Positions 37,313 to 56,031 of a stretch of 60,219 nt of DNA are shown one piece after another. The notes under the pieces were generated by a model. It did no database searches. It was not told the DNA's origin and was given only the letters and a program-made list of their open reading frames with translations. The stretch spans positions 1 through 60,219 of the forward strand of contig NZ_VBVX01000004.1 in assembly GCF_005981925.1 (NCBI RefSeq). The letters are read 5' to 3'. Positions within the stretch are counted from its first letter, which is position 1. Each line of letters begins with the position of its first letter. The translations under genes were made by a program, and so were the position numbers. Origin of the DNA: Streptomyces albidochromogenes. GTDB lineage: Bacteria; Actinomycetota; Actinomycetes; Streptomycetales; Streptomycetaceae.

Positions 37313-37336
37313 TAACCCGGCCCCTGAACGGGAAAC
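37313..37336 (-). promoter_or_regulatory. SigB-type promoter candidate of the LLM gene
   Basis: On the minus strand GTTT, 14 nt, GGGTTA. The -35 is perfect; the -10 deviates from GGGTAC/T in its second half. Confidence 0.5.
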
Positions 37337-37350
37337 GCGGGCCGCCCGGT

Positions 37351-37375
37351 GTTTGCCCCTGGGGGACGGGGGCAC
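37351..37375 (+). promoter_or_regulatory. SigB-type promoter candidate of the NDH-like gene
   Basis: GTTT, 15 nt, GGGCAC. The same layout, including GTTTGCCC, occurs before the sigma factor gene at 53842-53866. Confidence 0.45.
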
Positions 37376-37418
37376 CGGGAAGGTCCACCGCACCCGCCCC
37401 GCCCACGAGGTGAACGCA

Positions 37419-38771
37419 GTGACCCGAAACCGTCCCCGCATCGTCGTCGTGGGAGCGGGATTCGCCGGCCACCAGGCCGCGAAGACCCTCTCCCGGCAGC
37501 TGCGGGACAACGCCGAGATCGTCCTGCTCAACCCCACCGACTACTTTCTCTACCTCCCGCTCCTGCCACAGGTCGCCGCCGGCATCCTCGAACCGCGCCG
37601 GGTGACGGTCTCGCTGCCGGGGACGCTTCCGCGCGTACGGCTGGTCCTCGGCGAGGCGGACCGTGTCGACCTCGCGGCCCGCCGCGTGCACTACACCGGC
37701 CCCGAGGACGACAAGGGCGAGCTGGAGTACGACCGGCTCGTCCTGGCCGTCGGCAGCGTCAACAAGCTGCTGCCCGTCCCCGGCGTCGCCGAGCACGCCC
37801 ACGGTTTCCGCGGGCTGCCCGAAGCGCTCTACCTGCGCGACCACGTGACCCGCCAGATCGAACTCGCGGCCGCCACCGGCGACCCGGACGAGTGCGCCGC
37901 GCGCTGCACCTTCGTCGTCGTCGGCGCCGGATACACCGGCACCGAGGTCGCGGCCCAGGGGAAGATGTTCACCGACGCCCTCGTCCGCAGGCAGCGCGCC
38001 TGGCGGCACGCCGGGCACAAGCCGCGCTGGCTGCTGCTGGACATCGCGCCGAGGGTCCTGCCCGAACTCGACCGGCGGCTGTCACGGACGGCCGACACGG
38101 TGCTGCGCGGGCGCGGAGTCGACGTACGGACCGGGACGTCCGTCAAGGAGGCCACCCGCGAAGGAGTCCTGCTGGACGACGGGGAGTTCGTCGACACCAG
38201 GACCGTCGTCTGGTGTGTCGGCGTACGGCCCGATCCGCTCGTCTCGGAGGTCGGCCTGCCCGTCGAGCGCGGGCGGCTCCTCGTCGAGCCGACCCTCAAC
38301 GTGCCCGGCCACCCGGAGGTCTTCGCCTGCGGCGACGCGGCGGCCGTGCCCGACCTCACCCGGCCGGGGGAGTTCACCCCGATGACCGCGCAGCACGCCG
38401 CCCGGCAGGGCAAGGTGGCCGGCCGCAATGTCGCCGCCTCCCTCGGGTACGGGGAGCAGCAGCGGTACAAGCACAACGACCTGGGGTTCGTCGTGGACCT
38501 CGGCGGCGTCAAGGCCGCCGCCAACCCGCTCGGCGTACACCTGTCCGGCCCGGTCGCGGGCGCGGTCACCCGCGGCTACCACCTCGCCGCCATGCCGGGC
38601 AACCGGATCCGGGTCGCCGCCGACTGGCTGCTCGACGCCGTCCTGCCGCGCCAGGCCGTGCAGCTGGGCCTCGTCCGGTCCTGGTCGGTGCCCCTCGACA
38701 CGGCGTCACCGGAACTGGCCAGGGTCCCCGGCGGGCGCGGCCGGGCGGAGCAGAGTGAACCCGACGGGTGA
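37419..38771 (+). CDS. NAD(P)/FAD-dependent oxidoreductase, NDH-2-like
   Basis: A 450-aa flavoprotein resembling type II NADH dehydrogenase, which passes electrons from NADH to quinone without pumping protons. The FAD loop is VVVGAGFAGHQAA near residues 8-20, the NAD loop VVVGAGYTGTEVA near 163-175, and FACGDAAAVPD closes the FAD site. The C-terminal helical end may bind the membrane. The GTG at 37419 has GAGG eight bases upstream. The transketolase gene follows after 28 bp, so the two may be co-transcribed. Confidence 0.87.
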   Translation: MTRNRPRIVVVGAGFAGHQAAKTLSRQLRDNAEIVLLNPTDYFLYLPLLPQVAAGILEPRRVTVSLPGTLPRVRLVLGEADRVDLAARRVHYTGPEDDKGELEYDRLVLAVGSVNKLLPVPGVAEHAHGFRGLPEALYLRDHVTRQIELAAATGDPDECAARCTFVVVGAGYTGTEVAAQGKMFTDALVRRQRAWRHAGHKPRWLLLDIAPRVLPELDRRLSRTADTVLRGRGVDVRTGTSVKEATREGVLLDDGEFVDTRTVVWCVGVRPDPLVSEVGLPVERGRLLVEPTLNVPGHPEVFACGDAAAVPDLTRPGEFTPMTAQHAARQGKVAGRNVAASLGYGEQQRYKHNDLGFVVDLGGVKAAANPLGVHLSGPVAGAVTRGYHLAAMPGNRIRVAADWLLDAVLPRQAVQLGLVRSWSVPLDTASPELARVPGGRGRAEQSEPDG

Positions 38772-38799
38772 CCGCCAGGGAGCGACCACAGGGAGTGAC

Positions 38800-40665
38800 A
38801 TGGACAGGGAACAGTTCAGCGAGCTCGGGCAGCAGCTCAGGGTGGACGCGGTACGGGCCGCCGACGCCGCGCAGTCGGGCCATCCGACGTCGTCGATGTC
38901 GGCGGCCGACCTCGCGGCGGTGCTCCTCGGCGGCCACCTGCGCTACGACTTCGACCAGCCCGGCCATCCGGGCAACGACCGGCTGATCCTCTCGAAGGGC
39001 CATGCCTCCCCGCTGCTGTACGCCATGTACCGGGCGGCCGGCGTCATCGACGACGAGGAACTCCTCACCTACCGGCGGCGCGGCAGCCGCCTCGAAGGGC
39101 ACCCGACGCCCAGGCTCCCGTGGGTGGACGTGGCGACGGGGTCGCTCGGGCAGGGCCTGCCGGTCGGGGTCGGCGTGGCGCTGGCGGGCAAGCGCCTGGA
39201 CCGGGCCCCGTACCGCGTCTGGGTGCTCAGCGGCGACAGCGAGATGGCCGAGGGGTCGGTGTGGGAGGCCGCCGAGCACGCCGCCCACGAGCACCTCGAC
39301 AACCTCACCCTGGTCGTCGACGTCAACCGGCTCGGCCAGCGCGGACCCACCCGGCACGAGTGGGACCTGGGGGCGTACAGCCGTCGGCTGCACGCGTTCG
39401 GCTGGCACACCGTCGAGGTCGACGGCCACGACGTCGAGGCCGTGAACGCCGCCTTCGACGAGGCGCGGTCGACCACCGGCCGCCCCACCGCCGTCATCGC
39501 CCGCACCCGCAAGGGGCGCGGCGTCGCCGCGGTGGAGGACAAGGAAGGCATGCACGGCAAGCCGCTGAAGGACGCCGACAGCGCGATCCGGGAACTCGGC
39601 GGGCCGCGTTTCGTCCGGGTGGAGGTGGCGAAGCCGGCCGCCGCGCGGGCGTCCGCCCTGCTGACCGCACCCCTCGGCGAACTGAGGCTGCCGCGCTACG
39701 AGAAGGGCGGCGACGAGGTCGCCACCCGCAACGCCTACGGCGAGGCGCTCGCCGCGCTCGGGTCCGCGCGCGGCGACGTCGTGGCCCTCGACGGCGAGGT
39801 GAGCGACTCGACCCGGTCGCAGTTCTTCGCCAAGGAGCACCCCGACCGGTTCTTCGAGTGCTACATCGCGGAACAGCAACTGGTCGCCGCGGCCGTCGGC
39901 ATGCAGACACGGGGTTACGTCCCGTACGCCTCGTCCTTCGCGGCGTTCCTGAGCCGCGCGCACGACTTCATCCGCATGGCGGCGGTCAGCCGGGCCGGCA
40001 TCAACCTGGCGGGCTCGCACGCCGGAGTCGCCATCGGCGAGGACGGCCCGTCCCAGATGGGCCTCGAAGATCTCGCGCTGTTCCGCGCCGTGCACGGCAG
40101 CACCGTCCTGTACCCCTGCGACGCCAACCAGACCGCCAGGCTCGTCGCCGCGATGGCGCAGGGCGACGCGCGCAGCCGGGGCGTGCGCTACCTGCGCACC
40201 AGCCGCAGCGCCATGCCGGTCATCTACGGGCCCGACGAGGAGTTCCCCGTCGGAGGCAGCAAGCTGCTGCGCTCCGGCGAGGACGACGTGCTGACCCTGA
40301 TCGCCGCCGGGGTGACGGTCCACGAGGCGCTGCGCGCCGCGGACCTCCTCGCGCGGGACGGCGTGCCGGTGCGGGTCCTCGACCTGTACTCGGTCAAGCC
40401 CGTCGACGAGCCGGCGGTGCAGGAGGCGGCCGAACGCACCGGCTGCCTGGTGACGGTCGAGGACCACCACCCCCAGGGCGGCCTGGGCGACGCGGTCGCC
40501 GAAGTGTTCTCCGACGGCCGCCCGGCCCCGAGGCTGGTGCGCCTGGCCGTGGGGAACATGCCCGGCTCGGCCACCGGGCAGGAACAGCTCGGCGCCGCGG
40601 GGATCGACGCCGACTCGATCGTGGCCGCCGTACAGCTCCTGGCCGAGAAGGTGCTCGTACGGTGA
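38800..40665 (+). CDS. tkt: transketolase
   Basis: A 621-aa full-length transketolase of the shorter type (classical bacterial TktA is about 660-700 aa). The TPP/Mg motif GDSEMAEG...N lies near residues 145-172. The pyrimidine-binding domain begins near 305 (TRNAYGEALAALG), with the catalytic Glu in CYIAEQQLVAAAVG and AIGEDGPSQMGLEDLALFR after it. The C-terminal domain (450-621) is complete. It shuttles two-carbon units in the pentose phosphate pathway. A second, housekeeping tkt is expected elsewhere in the genome (inference). Confidence 0.93.
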   Translation: MDREQFSELGQQLRVDAVRAADAAQSGHPTSSMSAADLAAVLLGGHLRYDFDQPGHPGNDRLILSKGHASPLLYAMYRAAGVIDDEELLTYRRRGSRLEGHPTPRLPWVDVATGSLGQGLPVGVGVALAGKRLDRAPYRVWVLSGDSEMAEGSVWEAAEHAAHEHLDNLTLVVDVNRLGQRGPTRHEWDLGAYSRRLHAFGWHTVEVDGHDVEAVNAAFDEARSTTGRPTAVIARTRKGRGVAAVEDKEGMHGKPLKDADSAIRELGGPRFVRVEVAKPAAARASALLTAPLGELRLPRYEKGGDEVATRNAYGEALAALGSARGDVVALDGEVSDSTRSQFFAKEHPDRFFECYIAEQQLVAAAVGMQTRGYVPYASSFAAFLSRAHDFIRMAAVSRAGINLAGSHAGVAIGEDGPSQMGLEDLALFRAVHGSTVLYPCDANQTARLVAAMAQGDARSRGVRYLRTSRSAMPVIYGPDEEFPVGGSKLLRSGEDDVLTLIAAGVTVHEALRAADLLARDGVPVRVLDLYSVKPVDEPAVQEAAERTGCLVTVEDHHPQGGLGDAVAEVFSDGRPAPRLVRLAVGNMPGSATGQEQLGAAGIDADSIVAAVQLLAEKVLVR

Positions 40666-40682
40666 GAGCGCGGCGGGGTGTG

Positions 40683-40713
40683 GGTGGCGGGATGCCCTGA
40701 ACATCCCGCCACC
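40683..40713 (+). terminator. strong terminator after transketolase
   Basis: GGTGGCGGGATG and CATCCCGCCACC form a perfect 12-bp stem over a 7-nt loop, with further GCGGGG/CCCCGC pairing outside. Confidence 0.85.
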
Positions 40714-40800
40714 CTCCCCGCGCCGCGCGGGCCCGCCGGGAGCGGGCCCGCGCCCGTGCGGCCGCGCGCACGACGACGGAGCGAGCCCGGGAGAGGGACG

Positions 40801-41715
40801 ATGAGCGACACCACCACCATCAGGGCCGGACGCCGCACGGTGACCGTCCACCGCCCCGGGAAGGTCCTCTTCCCCGACTGCGGTCTCACCAAGGCCGACC
40901 TCGCCGGCTACTACCGGCGGGTGGCGGCGTTCATGGTGCCCCAACTGCGCGACCGGCCCCTGATGCTGGAACGCCGGCCCGACGGGACCGGCGGACCGCG
41001 CTTCATGCAGAAGGAGACGCCGGAGCACTACCCGGACTGGGTGCGCCGGGTCCGGGTCGCCAAGGAGGGCGGCACGGTCACCCACACCGTGTGCGACAAC
41101 ACCGCCACCCTCGTCTTCCTGGCCGACCAGGCGTGCCTGACCCTCCACCGGTGGCTCTCCCGGGCCGACCGCGTCGAGTGGCCCGACCGGCTGGTCTTCG
41201 ACCTGGACCCGGCGGGGGACGACTTCCCGGCCGTACGGGAGGCGGCGTACCGGCTCGGTGAACTCCTCGACCAGCTGCGGCTGCCGTCCACGCTCATGAC
41301 CACCGGTTCCAAGGGCCTGCACGTGATCGTGCCCCTCGACGGGCACACCACGTTCGACGACTCCCGCGCCTTCGCCAGGGACGTGGCCGAGACGCTGGCC
41401 GAGCGGCGTCCCGACGAGCTGACGACGGCCGTACGCAAGGAGGCCCGCGGCGGCCGGCTCTTCCTGGACGTCGGACGCAACGCCTACGCGCAGACCGCCG
41501 TCGCCCCCTGGTCGGTCCGCCCGGGCGAGGGCGCGCCGGTCGCCGCTCCGATCTCCTGGGAGCAGCTCGACGACAAGGAACTCACCGCGCGCACCTGGGC
41601 GTTGACCGACCCCGACGGCGTACTGGAACAGGCCCGCGCGAACCCCTGGTCGGGCGTCACGTCCAGGGGCCGCGCGCTCGGCCCGGCGCGCCGGCGGCTG
41701 CGCGCCCTGCGCTGA
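40801..41715 (+). CDS. stand-alone LigD-type primase-polymerase
   Basis: A 304-aa archaeo-eukaryotic primase-type polymerase matching the polymerase domain of LigD, which fills gaps during non-homologous end joining. The catalytic acids lie in VFDLDPAGDD near residues 136-145 and in LFLDVGRN near 220-227, with the TGSKGLHVIVP loop between them. No ligase or nuclease domain is fused, and no ku gene lies in the window. The ATG follows a GAGAGGG stretch. Confidence 0.9.
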   Translation: MSDTTTIRAGRRTVTVHRPGKVLFPDCGLTKADLAGYYRRVAAFMVPQLRDRPLMLERRPDGTGGPRFMQKETPEHYPDWVRRVRVAKEGGTVTHTVCDNTATLVFLADQACLTLHRWLSRADRVEWPDRLVFDLDPAGDDFPAVREAAYRLGELLDQLRLPSTLMTTGSKGLHVIVPLDGHTTFDDSRAFARDVAETLAERRPDELTTAVRKEARGGRLFLDVGRNAYAQTAVAPWSVRPGEGAPVAAPISWEQLDDKELTARTWALTDPDGVLEQARANPWSGVTSRGRALGPARRRLRALR

Positions 41716-41738
41716 ACGAAGCGCGGCGGCAGCCCCTG

Positions 41739-43211
41739 TCAGGCGTTCTCGCGGGCCGGGCCGGATTCCGTCACGGCGCTGAGCGGCGCGGCGATCGACT
41801 CCAGGCTCCGGCGCTCGCTCTTGACGCCCAGCACCGACTCGACCACCCCGGCGGCGACCATCAGCGCGGCGCCGACGCAGAACGCCAGGGTCGTGTCGGC
41901 GCGCTCCCCGCTGCTCACCAGGCCGTTGAACAGCAGCGGTCCGGTGATGCCGCCGAGGGCGGTGCCGACGGCGTAGAAGAAGGAGATGCACATCGCGCGC
42001 GTCTCCAGGGGAAAGACCTCGCTCACCGTCAGGTACGCCGAACTGGCCCCGGCGGAGGCGAAGAAGAGCACCGCGCACCAGCACGCGGTGAGCGTCACGG
42101 CGGACAGCGAGCCCTGCTGGAAGAGGTACGCCGTACCGAACAGCAGCAGACCGGACACGATGTAGGTACCGGCGATCATGGGCACGCGGCCGACACTGTC
42201 GAAGAAGTGGCCGAGGACCAGCGGGCCGAGCAGGTTGCCGACCGCGATCACCGCGAAGTAGTACGCCGTGGAGCCGACCGGCACGTCGAAGAACTCGGTC
42301 AGGATGACGGCGTAACCGAAGGTGATCGAGTTGTAGAGGAACGCCTGGCCGATGAAGAGCGACAGGCCGAGCGCCGTGCGCCCCCGGTACTGCGCGAAGA
42401 CCGTGCGCACGATGGTGCCGAAGCCGATGGACTTCCGCTGCCGGATGGCGATCTCCTCGTCCGGCACGGCGAGCCGCTTCCCGGTCTCCTGCTCCACCTG
42501 CTGTTCCACGCCGTCGACGATCCGGTCCGCCTCGTCCACCCGCCCGCGGATGAACAGCCAGCGCGGACTCTCCGGCACGTGCCGGCGGACCAGCAGGATG
42601 GCGAGGCCGAGCACCACGCCGGTCGCGAAGGCGAGCCGCCAGCCCAGGTCCTTCGGGAACAGGTCCGTGTCGAGGAACGCGACCGACGCGAGCGCGCCGA
42701 GCGCCGCGCCCGCCCAGAAGGTGCCGTTGATGATGAGGTCGATGCGGCCGCGCAGCCGGCCCGGGATCAGTTCGTCGATGGCCGAGTTGATGGCGGCGTA
42801 CTCGCCCCCGATGCCGAAACCGGTGAAGAAGCGGCAGAGATAGAAGAACCAGGCGGTTTCGGAAAAGGCGGTGGCCGCCGTCGCCGCGAGGTAGACCGCC
42901 AGCGTGATCATGAACAGCTTCTTGCGGCCGTAGATGTCGGTAAGCCGGCCGAAGAAGAGGGCGCCCACGCATGCTCCGGCCACATACAGGGCAGCAGCCC
43001 ACGTGGTCACCTGAACGGTGGTGATGTCGATGCCGCTGCCTTCTTCGGCGAGGCGGCCCACGATGTTGCCGACGATGGTCACTTCGAGGCCGTCGAGGAC
43101 CCACACCGTCCCCAGGCCGATGACGATCCGCCAGTGCCACGGTGACCACGGGAGGCGGTCGAGCCTCGCCGGAATGCGGGTGCGAATCACCCCGGTGTCC
43201 GTTGATGTCAT
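41739..43211 (-). CDS. MFS transporter, sugar-porter-like
   Basis: A 490-aa major facilitator with twelve predicted helices. GRLTDIYGRKKLF (loop 2-3 motif) lies near residues 87-99 and RFFTGFGIGGEYAAINSAIDELIP near 130-153; the large central loop (about 220-270) is charged. This type resembles the sugar and aromatic-acid transporters; the cargo is unknown. The message may be leaderless: the GGGTAC of a SigB-type promoter ends nine bases before the ATG and no ribosome binding site exists. Confidence 0.88.
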   Translation of the reverse strand: MTSTDTGVIRTRIPARLDRLPWSPWHWRIVIGLGTVWVLDGLEVTIVGNIVGRLAEEGSGIDITTVQVTTWAAALYVAGACVGALFFGRLTDIYGRKKLFMITLAVYLAATAATAFSETAWFFYLCRFFTGFGIGGEYAAINSAIDELIPGRLRGRIDLIINGTFWAGAALGALASVAFLDTDLFPKDLGWRLAFATGVVLGLAILLVRRHVPESPRWLFIRGRVDEADRIVDGVEQQVEQETGKRLAVPDEEIAIRQRKSIGFGTIVRTVFAQYRGRTALGLSLFIGQAFLYNSITFGYAVILTEFFDVPVGSTAYYFAVIAVGNLLGPLVLGHFFDSVGRVPMIAGTYIVSGLLLFGTAYLFQQGSLSAVTLTACWCAVLFFASAGASSAYLTVSEVFPLETRAMCISFFYAVGTALGGITGPLLFNGLVSSGERADTTLAFCVGAALMVAAGVVESVLGVKSERRSLESIAAPLSAVTESGPARENA

Positions 43212-43220
43212 CACACGCGG

Positions 43221-43245
43221 GTACCCGGACAGAAACGAACAACGC
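43221..43245 (-). promoter_or_regulatory. SigB-type promoter candidate of the MFS gene
   Basis: On the minus strand GCGT, 15 nt, GGGTAC. The -10 is perfect and followed by CCGCGTG, as before the PAP2-DAGK gene. It fits the GNNT-N14-16-GGGTAC form. Confidence 0.5.
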
Positions 43246-43259
43246 TCGGACACCGCGGA

Positions 43260-43284
43260 GTTTGGGCCCGGAGTCACGGGATAC
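43260..43284 (+). promoter_or_regulatory. SigB-like promoter candidate of the gas vesicle operon
   Basis: GTTT, 14 nt, GGGATAC, 19 bp before the gvpO ATG. The -35 and spacing fit; the -10 is imperfect. Confidence 0.4.
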
Positions 43285-43302
43285 ACGATGACGGAGGCTG
43301 CA

Positions 43303-43674
43303 ATGGCAAATACATCCGGTACTTCCGGAAAGTCTGATACGTCCAATGCGTCCGACAACGAAGAGAAGAACGAGAAGAGTTCACAGAGCACGTCATCCAG
43401 CAAGACGGAAAGCCTGCCGGGCCCGATGGAGGTGCTGCGCGGAGCGCGGGCACAACTGGCGGAGCTCACCGGCATGGAGGCCGAGTCGGTCTCGTCCTTC
43501 GAACGCACGGAGGACGACGGCTGGGTGTTGCGGGTCGAGGTCCTCGAACTGGCCAGGGTCCCCGACACCATGAGCCTCCTCGCGTCGTACGAAGTCACTC
43601 TCGACGCCCACGGAGCGCTCACCGGCTACCGGCGCGTCAGCCGCTACGAGCGCGGCAGGGCGGACCGTTCATAG
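43303..43674 (+). CDS. gvpO: gas vesicle protein GvpO
   Basis: A 123-aa GvpO, an accessory gas vesicle protein found in actinomycetes and haloarchaea. Residues 1-42 are a Ser/Thr/Lys/Glu-rich disordered tail with unusually many A/T-ending codons. The conserved GvpO domain follows (ARAQLAELTGMEAESVSSFER, DGWVLRVEVLELARVPDTMSLLASYEV, RVSRYERGR). The ATG at 43303 is preferred over 43288 because GGAGG lies between them at the right distance. It is first in the operon O-A-F-G-J-L-S-K. Confidence 0.92.
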   Translation: MANTSGTSGKSDTSNASDNEEKNEKSSQSTSSSKTESLPGPMEVLRGARAQLAELTGMEAESVSSFERTEDDGWVLRVEVLELARVPDTMSLLASYEVTLDAHGALTGYRRVSRYERGRADRS

Positions 43675-43703
43675 ACACCCGACATTAAGGAGGGCTGGTC
43701 GGC

Positions 43704-44135
43704 ATGACCGTAGTCCCGGCACAGCAAGGTGGAGGCGGCGGCGGTACCAGCGGCCTCTACGACGTCCTGGAGCTCGTCCTCGACCGGGGACTCGTGATCG
43801 ACGCGTTCGTACGTGTCTCCCTGGTCGGCATCGAGATCCTCAAGATCGACATCCGCGTCGTGGTGGCCAGCGTCGACACGTACCTGCGCTTCGCCGAAGC
43901 CTGCAACCGCCTCGACCTCGAAACCGGCGCCAACAAGAGCCCCGGCCTCCCGGAGATCGTGGGCGACGTCACCGAGTCCGGCGCGAGGGGCAAGTCCAAG
44001 GGGGCGCTGTCCGGCGCCGCCGAGACCCTCTCGGGCGCCTTCCAGCAGGTGCGCGGCGGTGACGACGAGAAGGCCGAGTCGAGGACGAGCAGCCGGCGCA
44101 GCAGCACGTCCCGCCGGAAGGAGGAGCAGGAGTGA
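43704..44135 (+). CDS. gvpA: gas vesicle structural protein GvpA
   Basis: A 143-aa GvpA-family protein. The core (residues 15-75: [44 protein letters not shown]) is the conserved shell-forming helix-strand-strand-helix unit. A tail of about 70 residues rich in Ser, Arg, Glu and Gly follows, far longer than in cyanobacterial GvpA (about 70 aa in total). A strong AAGGAGGG ribosome binding site suggests high expression. It shares a GTGA with gvpF. Confidence 0.93.
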
Positions 44136-44848
44136 GTACGTACGTCTACGGGATCGCCCGCGGAAACCACCCCGAACTGCCCGAGCCGACCAACGGTGTC
44201 GGCGAGCCGCCGATGCCCGTACGGGCCCTGCGGACCGGCGAACTGACCGCCCTGGTCAGCGACGCGCCCGAGGACCTCAGGCCCAAGCGCCGCGACCTGC
44301 TGGCGCACCAGACCGTGCTGGCGGAGGCCGGCGCCGTGGGCGCGGTACTGCCGATGCGCTTCGGCAGTCTGTCGACCGACGACGAGTCGGTGCGCACGGT
44401 GCTCGCCGAGCGCGAGAAGCACTACCTGGAGCGGCTCGACGCGCTCGACAACAAGGTCGAGTACAACGTGAAGGCCTCGCACGACGAGGAGGCCGTCCTG
44501 CACCAGGTACTGGCCGACGACCCCGAACTGCGCGCCCTCAACGAGGCAAACCGCGCGGCCGGCGGCGGCACGTACGAGCAGAAGCTGCGGCTCGGCGAGC
44601 GCGTCGTGCAGGCGGTGCAGCAGCGCGAGAAGCGCGACGGCGAACTGGTCCGCCAGGCCCTGGAGGGGGCGGCGGGAGACATCAGCCCCGGCCCCGACAG
44701 CAGCGGCTGGCTGGCGAACATCTCGTTCCTCGTCGACCGCGACAGCACGGCGGACTTCGTCGAGGCCGTGGACGCCCTGCGCAAGGAACACCCCCACCTC
44801 GTGCTCCAGGTGAACGGCCCACTGCCTCCTTACAGCTTCGTGGAGTGA
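44132..44848 (+). CDS. gvpF: gas vesicle protein GvpF
   Basis: A 238-aa GvpF/GvpL-family accessory protein with two ferredoxin-like alpha/beta parts: [18 protein letters not shown] at the start, [24 protein letters not shown] near 56-79, VEYNVKAS near 110 and the conserved end [12 protein letters not shown]. GvpF is thought to act in assembly, touching the growing shell. The GTG start overlaps gvpA. Confidence 0.93.
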
Positions 44849-44854
44849 CGCCGC

Positions 44855-45091: not shown

Positions 45092-45135
45092 CCTACCGTG
45101 AGCGCGCGGCCGACGAAAGCCGGGCCCGCCGATGA
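45088..45135 (+). CDS. 15-codon ORF bridging gvpG and gvpJ
   Basis: A small ORF, MTYRERAADESRARR, overlaps the gvpG stop by ATGA at its start and the gvpJ start by ATGA at its end. In many streptomycetes (from memory, cluster order O-A-F-G-Y-Z-J-L-S-K) gvpY and gvpZ lie here. The exact double coupling suggests either a remnant left by an in-frame deletion of Y-Z or a coupling relay that keeps ribosomes moving into gvpJ. It may not make a functional peptide. Confidence 0.5.
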   Translation: MTYRERAADESRARR

Positions 45136-46808: not shown

Positions 46809-46853
46809 GAACACCGGGGAAACACCACGGAACGCACAGTACGGAAAAGGAAA

Positions 46854-46881: not shown

Positions 46882-46883
46882 GG

Positions 46884-46922: not shown

Positions 46923-46990
46923 GGTGTGCACCTCCTGAGCTCCGAGTGCCCTCATTCCCCCCTCGTACACCGCGCACACGGAGAGCCCAC

Positions 46991-49463: not shown

Positions 49464-49472
49464 GGCACGCGA

Positions 49473-49498
49473 GTACCCGTCCCGCGCCCTTCCGAATC
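49473..49498 (-). promoter_or_regulatory. SigB-type promoter candidate of the PAP2-DAGK gene
   Basis: On the minus strand GATT, 16 nt, GGGTAC. The -10 is perfect and followed by TCGCGTG and the ATG. Confidence 0.5.
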
Positions 49499-49680
49499 AA
49501 CGCCCCACCCGGGCGGGCTCCACGCCCCGCGGCCCGGGCCCCGTGCGGACGGCCGGGGCGGCGGCCCGGACGGGTGCCCGGGGGGCGGGACGTTCGTACA
49601 GTGGGGTGAGGAATGGGAGGTCCGTTTCCCCCTCCGGGATGTCTGACGGGACGTGCACGGCGAGTACCCGAAGGTGAACC

Positions 49681-50280
49681 ATGAACACCACCGATTCGAA
49701 CCCGCTCCTCAGCCGCCACAGCGACGCCCTCGCCCTCTTCGGCGGCCATGTGCACGCCGTGCGCGAGGACCAGTGGCAGGCGTCCACGCCCTGCACCGAC
49801 TGGTCGGTGCGCGACCTCGTCAACCATCTGACCGTGGAACAGCTGTGGGTGCCCCCGCTGGTCACCGAGCGGCGCCCCATCGACGAGGGCGCCGACGGCG
49901 GCTTCGGCTTCGACCCCGAGGGCGACGCGCTGGGCGAGGACCCGGTGGCGGCCTGGGACCGGGCGGCGACGGCCGCCCGCGAGGCGTTCGCGGCGCCGGG
50001 CGCGCTGGATCGGACGGTGCACCTGTCGTACGGGGAGACCCCCTGTGCGGCGTACTGCGCCCAGATGGTGGCCGACCTGGTCGTGCACGCGTGGGACCTG
50101 GCGCGGGGCATCGGCGCCGACGAGCGGCTGCCGGCCGACCTCGTGGACTTCGCGGTGCGCGAAGTGGGCCCGTACTCCGCCGAACTGGAGAAGAGCGGCC
50201 TGTTCGCCGCTCCGGTGGAGCCGCCCCCGGGCGCCGACGTGCAGACCAAACTGCTCGCTCTGCTGGGCCGCCGCGTCTGA
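49681..50280 (+). CDS. TIGR03086-type maleylpyruvate-isomerase-like protein
   Basis: A 199-aa DinB/MDMPI-fold protein. The N-terminal helix pair has TPCTDWSVRDLVNHLTVEQLWV with the family's Trp and metal-binding His (near residues 38-58), and a second His lies in DLVVHAWDLARG near 132-143. Members may use mycothiol; the substrate is unknown. The ATG at 49681 follows GAAGGTGAACC. Confidence 0.88.
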   Translation: MNTTDSNPLLSRHSDALALFGGHVHAVREDQWQASTPCTDWSVRDLVNHLTVEQLWVPPLVTERRPIDEGADGGFGFDPEGDALGEDPVAAWDRAATAAREAFAAPGALDRTVHLSYGETPCAAYCAQMVADLVVHAWDLARGIGADERLPADLVDFAVREVGPYSAELEKSGLFAAPVEPPPGADVQTKLLALLGRRV

Positions 50281-50293
50281 CGGCCGGCCGGGC

Positions 50294-50334
50294 CGCCCCC
50301 GGCCCCGGCCCCCCACGGGCCCGGGCCGGGGGCG
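50294..50334. terminator. terminator between convergent genes
   Basis: CGCCCCCGGCCC (50294-50305) pairs with GGGCCGGGGGCG (50323-50334), between the TIGR03086 gene and the PfpI-like gene. Confidence 0.8.
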
Positions 50335-50342
50335 AAGCCGCG

Positions 50343-50891
50343 TCAGGGCTTGGCGGCCCGCGCGAACTCCTCGGTGAAGGCGGTGCAGAACGCCTTCAGG
50401 TCGTCCGGCTTGCGGCTGGTGATCAGCGTGGCGGGCGTCGCGTCGCACACCTTGACCTGCTCGTCGACCCAGGTGCCGCCCGCGTTGCGGATGTCCGTAC
50501 GCAGACTCGGCCACGAGGTCAGCGTCCTGCCGCGCAGCACGTCCGCCTCGACGAGCGTCCAGGGACCGTGACAGATGGACGCGACGGGCTTGCCCGCGTC
50601 GAAGAAGGCGCGCACGAACGCCACGGCCTTCTCGTCCATCCGCAGGAAGTCCGGGTTGGCGACGCCGCCCGGCAGCACCAGGCCGCCGTACTCCTCCACC
50701 GAGGCGTCGCCGACCACCTGGTCGACGGGAAACGTGTCCGCCTTGTCGAGGTGGTGGAACGCCTGAACGCTGCCCGGCTTCGTGGAGACCAGCCGGGGCG
50801 TGTCACCCGTGTCGGTCACCGCCTGCCAGGGCTCGGTGAGTTCGACCTGCTCGACGCCCTCGGGCGCCACGAGAAACGCGATCCGCATCAT
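50343..50891 (-). CDS. PfpI/DJ-1-family protein
   Basis: A 182-aa class I glutamine amidotransferase-like protein of the PfpI (Hsp31/YhbO) branch. The nucleophile elbow is ASICHGP with Cys107 and His108; an early Glu (VEQVELTEPW) can complete the site. Family members act on glycated or damaged proteins or as glyoxalases; which applies is unknown. The ATG at 50891 follows GGAAGGGAG. It is 55 bp downstream of the CBS gene and probably shares its SigB-type promoter. Confidence 0.88.
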   Translation of the reverse strand: MMRIAFLVAPEGVEQVELTEPWQAVTDTGDTPRLVSTKPGSVQAFHHLDKADTFPVDQVVGDASVEEYGGLVLPGGVANPDFLRMDEKAVAFVRAFFDAGKPVASICHGPWTLVEADVLRGRTLTSWPSLRTDIRNAGGTWVDEQVKVCDATPATLITSRKPDDLKAFCTAFTEEFARAAKP

Positions 50892-50946
50892 GCTCCCTTC
50901 CTGGAAATGTGTGGTGCCGCGGTGTGTCCGCCGTCCGCCCGGCGTC

Positions 50947-51384
50947 TCAGAAGCCGGCGTCGGGACCGGGGGTGGGCGCGGACCTGCTGATGTCGGCGAG
51001 CGCCGACCGCGGGTCCTGGAACTCCGCGAGGTCGCCGATGCTCACCACGCCGAGCGGGCGGCCGTCCTCGACGACCGGAAGCCGCCTGATGGCGTGCTGC
51101 CGCATCAGCGTGACGGCCGTCGACACCTCGTCGTCCGGCCCGACGCACACCGGCGCCGGCGTGCACACGGACTGGGCGTTGACCGTGAGGGGATCGAAGC
51201 CGTCCGCGACCGCGCGCAGCGCGATGTCCCGGTCGGTGAGCACACCGATCAACTGGTTGTCCCGCGCCACCAGCACATCACCGATGTCCTGCGCGCGCAT
51301 CAGCTGCGCCGCCTCCACGAGCGAGGCGTCGGGCCGCACGGCCGCGACCCCCGCCGTCATGACTTCCCTCACGAACTGGGCCAT
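50947..51384 (-). CDS. CBS-domain pair protein
   Basis: A 145-aa protein consisting of two CBS domains (VREVMTAGVAAVRPDASLVEAA..., then QSVCTPAPVCVGPDDEVSTAVTLM... with RRLPVVEDGRPLGVVSIGDLAE). Such proteins bind AMP, ATP or NAD(H) and act as energy or redox sensors; the partner is unknown. The ATG at 51384 follows AGGCGG. A near-perfect SigB-type promoter lies 46 bp upstream, and the PfpI-like gene follows in the same direction. Confidence 0.92.
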   Translation of the reverse strand: MAQFVREVMTAGVAAVRPDASLVEAAQLMRAQDIGDVLVARDNQLIGVLTDRDIALRAVADGFDPLTVNAQSVCTPAPVCVGPDDEVSTAVTLMRQHAIRRLPVVEDGRPLGVVSIGDLAEFQDPRSALADISRSAPTPGPDAGF

Positions 51385-51429
51385 GGCTGTCCGCCTCATC
51401 TCTTCACTCGCTGTCGGCTACCGGCGCGG

Positions 51430-51453
51430 GTACCCGTGGCGCGGGTCGCAAAC
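51430..51453 (-). promoter_or_regulatory. SigB-type promoter of the CBS-PfpI pair
   Basis: On the minus strand GTTT, exactly 14 nt, GGGTAC: a full match to the B. subtilis/Streptomyces SigB-type consensus, and the best such element in the window. Confidence 0.75.
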
Positions 51454-51747
51454 ATGCGCCGGTCCCGTCCCCCGGTCCGTCCGTCGATTCCCCGCCGCCC
51501 GCGTGTTTGGAGCCCGGCGCACAGGGGACCCGGTGCGCGGCCGAGCGGCCACTTGGGAAGAGGGACGGCCTCCGGGCGCGTTCCCGCACCGCTTCGAACG
51601 GCGGCGGCGCGGGACGCGCCCGGAGTTCTGCCGCGCCCCGGGACCCCGCCCGGGTCCAGCTCGCCCGCGAAGTGTCACTTCCACGGGTTTGCCCGTCGCC
51701 GTCCTGGTGACCCGGCCCCCAGGCCGTCCCTCAGGAAGGACAGGGCC
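51454..51747. other. intergenic region upstream of the 48-aa membrane protein gene
   Basis: No supported gene. A GTTTGCCC element at 51687-51694 resembles the -35 part of the SigB-like promoters at 37351 and 53842, but the -10 (TGGTGA at 51705-51710) fits poorly. Confidence 0.35.
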
Positions 51748-51894
51748 ATGGTGGGCTTAGCCGTGCTGATCCCGGTGCTCGTGCCGGTGTTCATGCTGGG
51801 CGTGATCATCGCGCTCGGCCGCTACGAGGAATTCATACTGACCGCGCGGGCCAAGGGCGCGCGTCACCGCCGGACGGGACCGGTCAGGCGGTGA
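51748..51894 (+). CDS. 48-residue single-span membrane protein
   Basis: One transmembrane helix (LAVLIPVLVPVFMLGVIIAL, residues 4-23) is followed by a basic cytoplasmic tail (RAKGARHRRTGPVRR). The AGGAAGGA ribosome binding site is strong and the codon use typical. No family is recognised. It lies between the CBS and TPP-enzyme genes, inside the stress neighbourhood, and could be a small stress membrane protein. Confidence 0.6.
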   Translation: MVGLAVLIPVLVPVFMLGVIIALGRYEEFILTARAKGARHRRTGPVRR

Positions 51895-51936
51895 CGGAAC
51901 GCACCAGGCCGGGGCAGCCCCCCGGCCCTGCGGAGG

Positions 51937-53742
51937 TCAGTCGTCCGCGCCCGGCCTGGGGCTGCCCGGCAGGAACTCCTGGAACTTCGACTTCAGACCC
52001 TGCTTCATCACCGCCGCCCCGTCGGCGTCCCCCTTCAGCAGCGCCGAAGCCGTCGCCTCGATCTGCTCCCACGTCGCGTGCGGCGGGATCGGCGGCACCG
52101 ACGGATCGGTGACGAAGTCCAGCACCACCGGGCCGTCCGCCGCCAGCGCGGCCCGCCACGCGCCCTCGACCTCCTCCGGCTTCTCCACCCGGATCCCGGT
52201 CAGGCCGATCGACTCGGCGAACGCCGCGTACGACACGTCGGGGAGCGACTGCGAGGGCAGGAACGACGGCGCGCCGCCCATCGCCCGCAGCTCCCAGGTG
52301 ACCTGGTTCAGGTCCCGGTTGTTGTAGACGGCGACCACCAGCCGCGGATCGTCCCACAGGTGGCGGTACTTCGCGACCGAGATCAGCTCCGCCATGCCGT
52401 TCATCTGCATCGCCCCGTCGCCGACGAGCGCGATCGCGGGACGGTTCGGGTGCGCGAACTTCGCCCCGATCGCATACGGCACACCGCACCCCATCGTGGC
52501 CAGCGTCCCCGACAGCGACGCCCGCATGTCGCCGCGCAGGCGCACATGGCGTGCGAACCAGTTGGTGGCCGACCCCGAGTCGGCCGTCACCATCGCGTGG
52601 TCCGGCAGCAGCGGCGACAGGGCCGCCGCCACGTGCTCCGGGTTGACCGGGTCGGCGGACAGGGCGGCCCGCCGCTCCATGATCTCCGTCCACCGCTCGA
52701 CGCCCGCGCAGATCTCGTCGAACCAGTCCCGCGCCTCGTTGCGCCGCAGCAGCGGGATCAGCTGGCGCAGGGTCGCCCGCGCGTCGCCGACCAGGTTCAC
52801 CTCGTACGGGTAGCGCATCCCGATCATGTGCGGGTCGATGTCGATCTGCACCGCGCGGGCCTTGCCGAACTCCGGGAGGAACTGGGCGTACGGGAAGCTG
52901 GAACCGATCGTCAGCAGCGTGTCGCAGTCCCGCATCATCTCGTACGACGGACGGGTGCCCAGCAGCCCGATGGAGCCCGTGACGTACGGCAGCTCGTCGG
53001 ACAGCACGTCCTTGCCGAGCAGCGCCTTCGCGACGCCCGCGCCCAGCAGCTCCGCGACCTCCGCGACCTCGGCCCGCGCCCCCGCGGCGCCCTGACCGGC
53101 CAGGATCGCCACCTTGTCGCCGGCGTTGAGCACGTCCGCCGCCCGCCGCAGCGCGTCCGGCGACGGCATCGCGGTCCAGCTGCTGCGGTCCAGGCTGGAG
53201 GGGACCATCTTGAAGGCGTGCGGCGGCGGCGTGTACTCCAGCTCCTGCACGTCCGCCGGCACGATGACCGCCGTGGGACAGCGCCGGGCGTACGCCGTGC
53301 GGATCGCCCGGTCCAGCACGTTCGGCAGCTGCTCGGGCACGGTCACCGTCTCGACGAAGTCGGAGGCGACGTCCTTGAACAGCGAGTGCAGATCGACCTC
53401 CTGCTGGTACGAGCCGCCCATGGCGCTGCGCGCGGTCTGCCCGACGATGGCCACCACCGGCACGTGGTCGAGCTTGGCGTCGTACAGGCCGTTGAGGAGG
53501 TGGATCGCACCGGGCCCGGAGGTCGCGACGCACACGCCGAGCCGGTTGCCGAACTTGGCGTATCCGACCGCCTCGAACGCGGACATCTCCTCGTGGCGGG
53601 ACTGGATGAAGCGGGGCTGGTCGTCGGCGCGCCCCCAGGCCGCCAGCAGGCCGTTGATGCCGTCACCCGGATAGCCGAAGACGCACTCGACTCCCCACTC
53701 GCGCAGGCGCGACAGGATCCGGTCGGCAACGTCGGTGCTCAT
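51937..53742 (-). CDS. TPP-dependent enzyme, pyruvate oxidase/acetolactate synthase-like
   Basis: A 601-aa thiamine diphosphate enzyme. The catalytic Glu lies in SRHEEMSAFEAVGYAK near residues 48-63. The central FAD/NAD-type domain is near 200-330. The TPP/Mg motif GDGAMQMNG...NN lies near 425-455. It resembles PoxB-type pyruvate oxidases more than biosynthetic acetolactate synthase, and no small subunit gene adjoins it. The ATG at 53742 has GGAGG eight bases upstream. It is divergent from the sigma factor gene, with a SigB-type promoter (53794-53818). Confidence 0.88.
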   Translation of the reverse strand: MSTDVADRILSRLREWGVECVFGYPGDGINGLLAAWGRADDQPRFIQSRHEEMSAFEAVGYAKFGNRLGVCVATSGPGAIHLLNGLYDAKLDHVPVVAIVGQTARSAMGGSYQQEVDLHSLFKDVASDFVETVTVPEQLPNVLDRAIRTAYARRCPTAVIVPADVQELEYTPPPHAFKMVPSSLDRSSWTAMPSPDALRRAADVLNAGDKVAILAGQGAAGARAEVAEVAELLGAGVAKALLGKDVLSDELPYVTGSIGLLGTRPSYEMMRDCDTLLTIGSSFPYAQFLPEFGKARAVQIDIDPHMIGMRYPYEVNLVGDARATLRQLIPLLRRNEARDWFDEICAGVERWTEIMERRAALSADPVNPEHVAAALSPLLPDHAMVTADSGSATNWFARHVRLRGDMRASLSGTLATMGCGVPYAIGAKFAHPNRPAIALVGDGAMQMNGMAELISVAKYRHLWDDPRLVVAVYNNRDLNQVTWELRAMGGAPSFLPSQSLPDVSYAAFAESIGLTGIRVEKPEEVEGAWRAALAADGPVVLDFVTDPSVPPIPPHATWEQIEATASALLKGDADGAAVMKQGLKSKFQEFLPGSPRPGADD

Positions 53743-53793
53743 ACGAAGGGCCTCCTACGGGCGGTGCGGTTGAAAAGAGCAGCACTCTGCCGA

Positions 53794-53818
53794 GTACCAG
53801 GCATACGGACAGGGAAAC
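53794..53818 (-). promoter_or_regulatory. SigB-type promoter candidate of the TPP enzyme
   Basis: On the minus strand GTTT, 15 nt, TGGTAC, one base off GGGTAC. Confidence 0.55.
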
Positions 53819-53841
53819 CGGACCGCCGTAAAACCCGACCC

Positions 53842-53866
53842 GTTTGCCCTCCCGAAGCGGGGGCAC
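53842..53866 (+). promoter_or_regulatory. SigB-type promoter candidate of the sigma factor gene
   Basis: GTTT, 15 nt, GGGCAC, one base off GGGTAC. It suggests autoregulation, with a leader of about 135 nt. Confidence 0.5.
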
Positions 53867-54010
53867 GTGCTCCATGTGCTTCGGACCGGAGGCACGTCCG
53901 TGGGAGCGGCAGTTCAAGCGCTCCGGGCGTGTCACGTCCGGACGCTGCGAAAACTCCCCCCGCGGTGACACCCGTCCGCCGTCTGCACCGTTCAGGGAGT
54001 TGCAACGAAG

Positions 54011-54805
54011 ATGCGTACCACCTCAGCCCGCAGGACGCACCCGCACCACGATGCCCCCGACACCTCCGAGGACTTCCGCCGTCTGTGCGCCATGCCCGAG
54101 GGCGAGGAGCGGGACGCGCTGCGCCAGGAGATCGTGAACGCCTGGCTGCCGATGGCGGACCGGCTCGCGAGCCGGTTCCGCAACCGCGGGGAGGCCATCG
54201 AGGACCTGCGCCAGGTGGCCGCGCTGGGCCTGGTCAAGGCGGTGGACCGGTACGACCCGGACCACGGCTCGGCCTTCGAGAGCTACGCCGTGCCGACGAT
54301 CACCGGTGAGATCAAGCGCCACTTCCGCGACCACATGTGGACCCTGCACGTGCCGCGCCGCGTCCAGGACCTGCGCAACCGCGTCCGTGCCGCCAGCCAG
54401 GAGCTGTCCGCGACCGTGTCGGGCCCCGCCCCCACCGTCGCGGAGATCGCCGAGAAGGCCGGCATGACCGAGGAGGAGGCCCTCACGGGTCTCGAGGCGC
54501 TCGACTCCTTCACCGCGCTGTCCCTCGACGCCCAGCTGCCCGGAACGGGCGACGGATACTCGCTCAGCGACGCGCTGGGCGGCCCCGACGGCGCCCTCGA
54601 CGTCATCGTCGACCGGGAGGCCGTCAAGCCGGCCCTCAACCGGCTCCCGGAGCGCGAGAAGAAGATCCTCTACATGCGCTTCTTCCGCGACATGACGCAG
54701 AGCAGCATCGCCGAGGACCTCGGGCTCTCCCAGATGCACGTCTCCCGGCTGATCAGCCGCTGCTGCACCCGTCTGCGCGACGAGGCCCTGCGGGACGCCG
54801 CATAG
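54011..54805 (+). CDS. SigB/SigF-type RNA polymerase sigma factor
   Basis: A 264-aa stress/sporulation-type sigma factor. Region 2 (LADRLASRF is read as ADRLASRFRNRGEAIEDLRQVAALGLVKAVDRYDP in parts, then ESYAVPTITGEIKRHFRD) lies near 45-110, region 3 near 115-170, and region 4 (LPEREKKILYMRFFRDMTQSSIAEDLGLSQMHVSRLI in parts) near 205-250. This subfamily is normally held by RsbW-type anti-sigma factors; none is adjacent. The ATG at 54011 has a weak GGGAG upstream. Its 3' end overlaps the convergent PAS-GAF gene by 53 bp. Confidence 0.93.
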   Translation: MRTTSARRTHPHHDAPDTSEDFRRLCAMPEGEERDALRQEIVNAWLPMADRLASRFRNRGEAIEDLRQVAALGLVKAVDRYDPDHGSAFESYAVPTITGEIKRHFRDHMWTLHVPRRVQDLRNRVRAASQELSATVSGPAPTVAEIAEKAGMTEEEALTGLEALDSFTALSLDAQLPGTGDGYSLSDALGGPDGALDVIVDREAVKPALNRLPEREKKILYMRFFRDMTQSSIAEDLGLSQMHVSRLISRCCTRLRDEALRDAA

Positions 54806-55982
54806 CGAGCGCCGCATGGCGGGACATCAGGTCCATGACCTGGCCCTCCGCCATGGAGAACGCCCGCCGGGGACCCGTACGGAACAGGGTGAGCACCCCC
54901 TGCACGGGTCCGGTGGACCCTGCCCCGGCCCCGTCGGCGCCCGGCGCCGTCAGCGGCACGCACAGCAGCGAGGTGACGTCCGCCCGTACGAGCACCGGAT
55001 CGCCCGCCGGGTCGTGACCGAAGCCGTCCGTGTCCTCCGGCCGCACCTGGAGGGTCGCGGAGCCGCCCCGGGCGGCCTCCACCACCAGCGGGCAGCCGGA
55101 CGGGTCCTGGCCGGCCAGCACCTGCGCGAGGTCTTCGCCGCCCGGTCCGCCCGGTCCGAGCACGAGCGTGCGCTTGATCGGCCCTCCGGCGACGACATCG
55201 GCGACCACCCAGTCGGCGAAACGTTCGTGCAGCACCCGTGCGGCGGCCTCCAGGGCGGCCTCGGGGTCCTCGGGCGGGGCGGACAGCAGCGCGGTGGTCA
55301 TCGCGTCGACGAGGTCCAGGCGCTCCGCGTACCGGGTCGTCTCCCGCAGATCCGGCAGCGCGGTGCGCCTCCGGCCCGCCGCGACCGCCCGCGTCGACGG
55401 GTACGCGCCGGCCTGGCGCCCGGAGACCGCGTTCTGGAAGACGACGAGCACCGCCGGATGCGTCTCGTCCGGCGGGCGCAGCGCGGTCAGGGTGGCCAGC
55501 AGCCGATCGTCGGGCCGCTGCTGGAGATGGACGGCCAGGCTCCGGTCGCCCTCGCCGCGCGCCACGGCGGCGGCCTGCGAACGGAACGCGGCCCGGTCCC
55601 CGGGGCTCAGCAGCGCCGCCAGCGGACGCCCCGTCGCGTACCCGGCCCGGACACCGGTGAGCCCCGTCGCGGCGAAGTTCATCCGCCGTACGACGGTCTC
55701 CCTGTCCACCAGCGCGACCGGCACCGGAAGCCGCTGGAACAGGGCCTTGAGCAGCTGCCGCTCCTGCCGCTCCTGCCGGTCGGGGGACGCGGCGTTCGGG
55801 GCGACGGCCCGCAGCCGCTCGTACCGGGGCCACAAGGTGTCGGCGACGTGCCGCAATTCGAACAGAGCGGCGTCCAGGACGGCGAGGTGCTCGTCGGGCG
55901 GCAGGGCGCGCGCGGCCCTCAACTCTCCGACCCGTCTGACGAAATCTGCCAGCTCCGCGCCGAAGTCGTCCGTCTGCGTCAT
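54753..55982 (-). CDS. PAS-GAF sensor protein without output domain
   Basis: A 409-aa sensory protein. An N-terminal helical part is followed by a PAS domain (LPVPVALVDRETVVRRMNFAATGLTG, near 88-115) and a GAF-like domain near 225-390 (VLHERFADWVVADVV, VTSLLCVPLTAP, GVLTLFR). Many streptomycete homologues end in a PP2C (SpoIIE-like) phosphatase; here the protein stops after GAF with a short tail. Its position convergent with a SigB-type gene suggests a role in sigma control (inference). Its 3' end overlaps that gene by 53 bp. Confidence 0.85.
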   Translation of the reverse strand: MTQTDDFGAELADFVRRVGELRAARALPPDEHLAVLDAALFELRHVADTLWPRYERLRAVAPNAASPDRQERQERQLLKALFQRLPVPVALVDRETVVRRMNFAATGLTGVRAGYATGRPLAALLSPGDRAAFRSQAAAVARGEGDRSLAVHLQQRPDDRLLATLTALRPPDETHPAVLVVFQNAVSGRQAGAYPSTRAVAAGRRRTALPDLRETTRYAERLDLVDAMTTALLSAPPEDPEAALEAAARVLHERFADWVVADVVAGGPIKRTLVLGPGGPGGEDLAQVLAGQDPSGCPLVVEAARGGSATLQVRPEDTDGFGHDPAGDPVLVRADVTSLLCVPLTAPGADGAGAGSTGPVQGVLTLFRTGPRRAFSMAEGQVMDLMSRHAALAMRRPAGPRRADGCSSG

Positions 55983-56006
55983 ACGAGAAAGCTAACGGGT
56001 CCGGCG

Positions 56007-56031
56007 GTTTTGCGGACAGGGTGGTGGGAAG
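56007..56031 (+). promoter_or_regulatory. SigB-type promoter candidate of the ANTAR gene
   Basis: GTTT, 15 nt, GGGAAG, fitting the GGGWA form of SigB -10 boxes. Confidence 0.4.

Follow-up and report, generated by a model that had tools for sequence, protein, structure and literature searches.

Does a group of SigB-type promoters around a stress sigma factor gene form one local regulon, and which part of such a neighbourhood is retained among related species? The question is raised by a stretch of 60,219 nucleotides (nt) from Streptomyces albidochromogenes (contig NZ_VBVX01000004.1, positions 1 to 60,219 of the forward strand; hereafter the window), which is contig 472 of a genome assembly of 7.27 Mb. 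An earlier note on this DNA, made from the letters alone, had placed nine promoter-like elements of one form around a sigma factor gene and proposed that they constitute a single local regulon. We found that this neighbourhood is partly real and for the most part of a familiar type. Its conserved core is a module consisting of the SigB-type promoter of the sigma gene and a leader immediately downstream of it; this conserved leader, and its recurrence on paralogous sigma genes, had been overlooked. The features that carry the argument are:

53842..53866, plus strand: SigB-type promoter of the sigma gene, GTTTGC-N13-GGGCAC, matrix score 11.8.
53876..53908, plus strand: nearly invariant leader block, GTGCTTCGGAC[N]GGAGGCACGTCCGTGGGAGCG, from an alignment of the sigma upstream region in 28 genomes.
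54011..54805, plus strand: sigma factor of the SigB/SigF/SigG family, 264 amino acids, TIGR02980 score 282 bits against a cut-off of 234, with Pfam regions 2, 3 and 4 present.
56007..56031, plus strand: SigB-type promoter of the ANTAR gene, GTTTTG-N13-GGGAAG, matrix score 12.3.
56058..56774, plus strand: ANTAR-domain protein, 238 amino acids, domain at residues 167-220 (PF03861, E 8e-20).

Promoters were scored with a matrix built from the 24 mapped S. coelicolor promoters given in Table 2 of PMC8346170, which themselves score between 7.6 and 15.5. The distance of the leader block from the −10 hexamer of the sigma promoter is 9 nt, which would place it about 3 nt downstream of the predicted transcription start. 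In the 28-genome upstream alignment the block is more conserved than the promoter itself. An alignment of 64 leaders (two long leaders had been dropped before, and L171 and L205 were omitted from the 66 then kept) gave an average of 1.85 bits for columns 1-34 vs 1.15 bits for columns 46-66 and 1.37 bits for columns 121-145. The stretch just before the sigma start, Shine-Dalgarno sequence included, is also fairly conserved. A second conserved segment of the leader, CUCCCACGGUGAC-like in many species, lies at 53954-53969, about 42-57 nt before the sigma start.

The block is single-copy in its own genome at up to 3 mismatches. Among the named sigma loci, which are the best 80 of 532 relatives, 76 carry it at up to 6 substitutions, compared with 0 of 20 random 20-kb stretches; two of the four negative loci (L177 and L195) have no upstream DNA, L215 has a one-letter insertion, and the fourth is L169. 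At the same threshold the block was present in 25/29, 12/20 and 18/20 loci of other sigma sets, which overlap in genomes. A search of 81 sampled Streptomyces genomes for a 30-letter form with up to 3 mismatches gave 66 copies, which belong to 38 of the genomes, and the backward control gave none. In an order-wide sample of 293 genomes the block was present in 170; these all belong to the 273 Streptomyces genomes of the sample, and the 20 genomes from outside the genus had none (backward control, 1). A genome may carry up to four copies; S. violaceoruber NRRL S-981 has three.

The genes downstream are equally uniform. Sixty-three of the 66 copies are followed on the same strand, at a distance of at most 400 nt, by a listed SigB-type sigma gene, and the other three (L285, L286 and L287) by a SigB-type sigma frame that is broken or shortened, as judged by eye. 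At all 30 loci taken from the order-wide sample, a sigma gene lies downstream on the strand of the block. Five of seven odd or other-clade copies (L288-L294) have a sigma row, L290 shows the start of a sigma frame, and at L288 only a short stretch resembling a sigma N-terminus was seen by eye, followed by another gene. In all, six loci (L285-L288, L290 and L302) have no sigma row; five were inspected by eye, and the sixth, L302, coincides with L287. At L290 (G280 C2 765500-768500), the core of the block is tandemly duplicated before the apparent start of a SigB-type sigma gene.

These data bear on the possibility that the block works in the RNA in some other way, as a signal for the processing or stability of the sigma mRNAs or as the 5′ portion of a small RNA that they release. 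The hairpin that may form at the extreme 5′ end of the transcript would suit such an element, as would the apparently broken or decayed sigma genes at L285, L286 and L288, which retain promoter and block. However, all copies of the 81-genome sample precede a sigma gene or its remains, and the region before the sigma start is fairly conserved together with its Shine-Dalgarno sequence. We consider this explanation unlikely.

The block is coupled not only to a gene but also to a promoter. A SigB-type promoter scoring at least 10 was present within 60 nt before the block at 46 of 48 loci, paralogs included, vs 7% of shuffled sequences; the two loci without it are L289 and L294. The distance from the −10 hexamer to the block in those 46 loci ranges from 8 to 12 nt. 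In a tree of 93 sigma rows, whose bootstrap values had not fully settled, the block-bearing genes fall into several supported clades, including one of 19 rows (98/98) and one of 3 rows (100/95). The unit of promoter plus block thus stands on several paralogous SigB-family sigma genes. The block was found at up to 6 substitutions in 88 of 92 sigma rows; as some of these rows were selected for having the block, the figure is not a prevalence. Going by gene positions, the block-bearing paralogs may be sigK, sigL and sigM, which is a guess. At L293 a gene for an anti-sigma-type ATPase (HATPase_c_2; RsbA match below the cut-off) precedes the sigma gene of the 3-row clade, which is a hint at a sigM-type gene because rsmA (SCO7313) adjoins sigM (SCO7314) by gene number.

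Whether the block acts as RNA or as DNA was approached through its predicted structure, which involves the following elements:

53876..53895, plus strand: hairpin A, 53876-53881 paired with 53890-53895; the closing pair 53882-53889 is not conserved.
53892..53932, plus strand: alternative hairpin B, 53892-53899 paired with 53925-53932, sharing letters with hairpin A.
53954..53958, plus strand: CUCCC, a potential partner of the GUGGGAG of the block or of the sigma Shine-Dalgarno sequence at 53995-53999.

The core of hairpin A consists of six pairs (GUGCUU/AGGCAC). Among 75 distinct blocks, 18 changed cells in these pairs are still paired, 12 of them being one wobble at pair 2-19; the sole double change (T2C with A19G) occurs in L288, and the one real break in the second copy of the tandem duplication at L290. 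Two odd rows were disregarded in counting breaks, L020/L068, which is probably gapped, and L055/L201, which is a chance match. Of the 75 blocks, 14 have a broken closing pair 7-14. Hairpin B in its extended form is paired in 89.2% of cells, compared with 30-65% for partners slid along the sequence. Both alignments gave hairpin A with RNAalifold, and the longer one also gave part of the GUGGG-CUCCCAC pairing.

The main rival is a DNA operator, at which a repressor or activator bound just downstream of the start would tune the SigB-type promoter. Near-total invariance with little covariation is typical of a protein site, the block adjoins the predicted start, and a MarR-family gene (L299 929-1384, minus strand) diverges from a second-clade sigma gene. 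On the other hand, the changes in the stem of hairpin A are mostly U-G wobbles, compatible with an RNA helix but spoiling the symmetry of a DNA palindrome, the distance between the −10 hexamer and the block is not fixed, and three columns in the partner strand of hairpin B vary almost exclusively among pairing letters. RNA is moderately favoured over a DNA operator because the changes in the core pairs stay paired as U-G wobbles and the spacing from the −10 hexamer varies; we regard the operator as rather improbable, though less so than the processing signal or small RNA considered above.

Several observations weigh against an RNA structure. The changes in hairpin A affect four pairs and may represent few independent events, and its only double change lies in a copy with a decayed-looking sigma gene. 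The 89.2% pairing of hairpin B hardly differs from the 88.7% obtained after shuffling the 3′ letters from one sequence to another. Its covariation is weak (3 double-change cells vs 1.1, reached in 16 of 500 shuffles; covariation score reached in 50 of 500) because one strand hardly varies. The pairs predicted by RNAalifold are without any double change, and single-sequence folds are moderately stable, with z values from −1.3 to −2.6. Two longer pairings that might free or mask the Shine-Dalgarno sequence (GUGGGAG/CUCCCAC and CUCCC/GGGAG) are present in 90.0% and 85.0% of cells, which is not above shuffles; pairing of CUCCC with the Shine-Dalgarno sequence does appear in the predicted fold of the window, and this anti-Shine-Dalgarno switch, 85-90% complementary, is retained as a hypothesis only. 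Two further candidates were rejected. A pseudoknot between the loop CGGAC and GUCCG shows mismatches at three of its five pairs, affecting 7, 3 and 2 of the 64 rows, without compensation. An upstream open reading frame acting as a leader-peptide attenuator was suggested by the end of the block, GGAGG-N7-GTG, but frames, lengths and stops are not shared; of 86 leaders, 77 have GTG as the would-be start codon and 9 have another, which is ATG in one.

Genes for ANTAR-domain proteins often accompany the leader-bearing sigma genes. Among the named loci (close relatives) with enough flanking DNA, 41 of 63 have an ANTAR gene on the same strand, no more than 4 kb downstream of the block. The second sigma clade has one in 17 of 19 loci, about 1.1-1.3 kb downstream and on the opposite strand, and the third, small clade in 2 of 3 loci, about 1.4-1.5 kb downstream and on the same strand. 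As the arrangements differ among the clades, simple hitch-hiking of the ANTAR genes is less likely. Several of the domains were confirmed with Pfam. In a rough scan, the ANTAR genes beside the paralogs mostly showed no clear SigB-type promoter, unlike the one beside the window sigma gene.

The association has its exceptions, which count against a role of the ANTAR protein. No ANTAR gene lies within 4 kb in 22 of the 63 block-bearing loci, and ANTAR genes also occur near sigma loci L047 and L050, which carry no block at up to 5 substitutions (L047 has a weak one at 6). As the background to these counts, 632 kb of other loci contained no ANTAR gene; this zero can stand only as a minimum, since the ANTAR model was derived from the window domain and from hits in the same loci, and the background may be undercounted. 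ANTAR proteins are reported to bind dual-hairpin RNAs (PMC8164766). The leader shares with the actinobacterial targets of that account the nearness to an ANTAR gene and, if the closing pair forms, a loop of six letters. The target motif, two hairpins with hexaloops bearing A1 and G4, was not found in the leader, which has one invariant hairpin with the differing loop GGACNG and a second, variable one.

Taken as a whole, the module is best explained as a SigB-type promoter followed by an RNA leader that gates the expression of a stress sigma factor, the ANTAR protein being the likeliest reader; we give this explanation about an even chance. The promoter, identified by its conservation, would start the sigma message a few letters before the block. 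At the start of this stress sigma message a hairpin, presumably hairpin A, would then either hold back or permit its elongation or translation. One SigB-type factor could thereby not bring about the next merely by transcribing its gene. The hairpin may be read by the ANTAR RNA-binding protein often encoded nearby, a suggestion that comes from the proximity of the genes.

The remaining SigB-type elements of the neighbourhood are:

37312..37336, minus strand: SigB-type promoter of the LLM (F420 family) gene, matrix score 12.5 in the register starting at 37312.
37351..37375, plus strand: SigB-type promoter of the NAD(P)H oxidoreductase (NDH) gene, matrix score 11.8.
43221..43245, minus strand: weak element before the MFS gene, probably no promoter of the SigB class, matrix score 7.3.
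43260..43284, plus strand: candidate promoter of gvpO, matrix score 12.0, degenerate in most relatives.
49473..49498, minus strand: candidate promoter of the PAP2-DAGK gene, matrix score 12.1, in few relatives.
51430..51453, minus strand: candidate promoter of the CBS gene, full consensus, matrix score 14.3, in few relatives.
53794..53818, minus strand: candidate promoter of the gene for the TPP enzyme, matrix score 11.1; it diverges from that of the sigma gene.

All nine letter strings, those before the sigma and ANTAR genes included, were present at the coordinates given in the earlier note, and eight of them score between 11.1 and 14.3, the exception being the MFS element. Their local density is high. 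GTTT-N14/15/16-GGGTAC with at most one mismatch has 84, 117 and 76 matches in the whole genome (277 together), compared with 52, 88 and 78 for the pattern read backwards. Eleven of the 277 lie inside the 18.7 kb delimited by the earlier note (37,313 to 56,031), one of them starting 1 base before it, where 0.71 would be expected. The count was made over all DNA, coding sequence included, and not over intergenic DNA only; the Poisson probability is 3e-10, or about 1e-7 once multiplied by the number of such stretches. Thus, on this all-DNA count, the elements are not equally dense elsewhere. Seven of the eleven matches are sites listed in the earlier note, whereas the MFS and ANTAR elements miss the one-mismatch limit; the four further matches start at 40110, 43201, 49664 and 51505. 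The exact form GTTTN14-16GGGTA shows no clear genome-wide excess (11 vs 9 backwards). This would suit chance matches in GC-rich DNA, but the local excess and the conservation at fixed places in dozens of species make chance a nearly negligible explanation. A full-consensus site at G000 C141 2678-2703 (minus strand) hardly differs from the S. coelicolor promoter mapped at SCO3557 and provides an internal check of the pattern. A matrix match of 13.1 also lies within the cation-efflux gene (46954-46979, minus strand) and has no obvious target.

Conservation upstream of orthologs separated the elements from one another. A matrix score of at least 11 was taken as the cut-off, which shuffled sequences reach in about 1-7% of cases; the shuffles preserve dinucleotides in a set of 40 congener loci and base counts only in the other ortholog sets, and the 40-locus set and one further set share genomes. 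The sigma site reaches the cut-off in 66 of 78 named loci and in 33 of 40 other loci (paralogs included), the ANTAR site in 56 of 59 orthologs vs 3.5% of shuffles, and the LLM site in 9/10 and 2/3 orthologs of two sets. The NDH site reaches 11 in 9 of 29 and 10 in 25 of 29 orthologs of one set, and in the named-loci set the counts are 0/9 and 2/9; the relatives often retain a GTTTGG-N13-GGGGAC-like element. For the TPP site the counts are 0/10 in one set and 7/34 in the named loci, where the mean score is 10.0 vs 7.2 for shuffles. The CBS site was found in 4/22 and 5/49 orthologs (identical hexamers and spacing in 4/49), the PAP2 site in 0/17 and 5/45, and the gvpO site in 2/29 and 1/27, whether at a score of 11 or of 10; several relatives have GTTTGG or GTTTGC at the position corresponding to gvpO with a different −10 hexamer. 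No MFS ortholog was found among the relative loci compared. Other genes of the named-loci set are at or near the shuffled rate (gvpK 0/26, MDMPI 0/35, MT 1/43, TK 0/8, DJ-1 2/45) or somewhat above it (gvpL 2/20, gvpF 1/10, AT 4/65, PAS 6/49); the latter rates indicate that single sites at a score of 11 arise by chance or by lineage.

If a SigB-type promoter is understood as a GTTT/GNNT hexamer and a GGGTAC/T-like hexamer 12-15 nt apart that are conserved, the sigma, ANTAR, LLM and, for the most part, NDH sites belong to this class. The MFS element does not, and the CBS, PAP2 and gvpO sites lack the conservation. The claim of a SigB-type neighbourhood around the sigma gene thus holds, on the strength of the density test and these conserved sites. 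The element singled out as a full consensus match, that of the CBS gene, does have the top score, but the best match to the consensus lacks broad conservation.

That the nine promoters form one local autoregulated regulon of the window sigma factor is very unlikely. The density of the elements speaks for it, as does the SigB-regulated promoter reported for the S. coelicolor gas vesicle operon SCO6496-6508 (PMC5733086). However, the MFS element is weak and its gene has no ortholog in the loci compared, the CBS and PAP2 sites are not broadly conserved and the gvpO site is mostly degenerate. Moreover, the SigB homologues cross-recognise promoters: almost all 24 tested promoters were used by at least two of the nine S. 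coelicolor homologues according to PMC8346170, and the sigma factor using a given site can therefore not be named from the sequence. For the same reason, autoregulation of the sigma gene, claimed from its own copy of the element, is possible but cannot be read from the site. The LLM and NDH sites, and in some lineages the TPP, gvpO, CBS and PAP2 sites, would be ordinary stress promoters.

The gene names used in the earlier note agree with Pfam and other family matches. One end of the neighbourhood carries genes for an F420-family LLM oxidoreductase, the NDH protein, a transketolase, a LigD primase and the MFS protein. A gas vesicle cluster follows with gvpO, a gvpA-type gene, gvpF, gvpG, a second gas-vesicle structural type, gvpL and gvpK, and the remaining genes encode cation efflux, PAP2-DAGK, DJ-1, CBS, TPP enzyme, sigma factor, PAS and ANTAR proteins. 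The PAS gene is placed as follows:

54753..55982, minus strand: PAS-domain protein (PF08448), between the sigma and ANTAR genes.

The gene block is partly syntenic in many of the 40 congener loci, the MFS gene excepted: this gene (41739-43220), between the LigD primase gene and gvpO, has no ortholog at that place in the 40 loci. A methyltransferase gene (35380-36189) is a neighbour of the LLM gene in the window, but many relatives have it between PAP2 and the gvp genes. The relatives sharing the sigma gene (named loci) are all Streptomyces, the nearest being Streptomyces chryseus JCM 4737 with a 100% identical sigma protein. Linkage of the sigma and gvp genes is present in several congeners, and in S. 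violaceoruber NRRL S-981 a sigma factor 77% identical to that of the window is encoded next to the DJ1, CBS and TPP genes.

The closest known system is the SigB-family network of S. coelicolor (SigB, SigK, SigL, SigM), which likewise has SigB-type promoters on stress sigma genes and an osmotic cascade: SigB directs sigL and sigM (PMC8346170; PMC3184153), and sigK (SCO6520) is one of the osmotically induced sigma genes (PMC8346170). A sigma gene near gas vesicle genes is common to both: sigK lies near the gvp cluster (SCO6499-6508) by gene number; gvpK is SCO6508 (PMC2631018), and SCO6509, numbered next to it, has a mapped SigB-dependent promoter (PMC8346170). Any equation of the genes studied here with those for SigK, SigL and SigM would be an inference. 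The S. coelicolor gvp operon (PMC5733086) represents the same type of neighbourhood and the same regulatory class, unlike which the window has an MFS gene between LigD and gvpO and a gvpO element that is degenerate in most relatives. The network is described in terms of promoters, anti-sigma factors and proteolysis, and no mRNA leader common to its sigma genes and no link to ANTAR proteins was seen in the accounts of PMC8346170 and PMC3184153. Similarly, the autoregulation of Bacillus subtilis SigB involves a SigB-type promoter before a SigB-type gene, and a leader element is no part of it as described in PMC8346170.

The window has no Rfam match at gathering score in its 60,219 bases, and nothing near the cut-off at 53600-54100. 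Structured leaders of Streptomyces include the dauA and livJ leader motifs (PMC11109978) and the ydaO riboswitches (PMC10117811), which precede different genes; the window leader is set apart from dauA and livJ by the genes and not by sequence comparison. We found no description of such a leader, of its letters or of a link between ANTAR proteins and SigB in open-licence PMC papers (supplements not included); the 14 papers that matched its letters appear from their titles to be unrelated. As far as the Rfam and literature searches tell, the leader is apparently undescribed.

How nine SigB homologues with overlapping promoter preferences are kept apart was left open in section 2.4 of PMC8346170. 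The same work reports that during differentiation of S. coelicolor the sigK transcript goes up and the SigK protein goes down, which was ascribed to post-translational control; the discord would fit a translational gate too, although it is no test of it. It is conceivable, but we put it forward only tentatively, that the SigB-family stress sigma genes share an RNA switch, every paralog being transcribed from a SigB-type promoter yet bearing the same 5′ hairpin, and that nearby ANTAR proteins, whose gene in this clade has a SigB-type promoter too, decide after transcription which step of the cascade is released. The element is short, almost invariant and easily mutated, and the leader is the part of the locus that deserves a bench test, for which a simple reporter suffices. 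The proximity of the ANTAR genes suggests a candidate RNA-binding partner for it. A leader common to several sigma genes would add a post-transcriptional control point and, if the proposed reading is true, would represent a new class of ANTAR targets and an RNA checkpoint within the general-stress sigma cascade.

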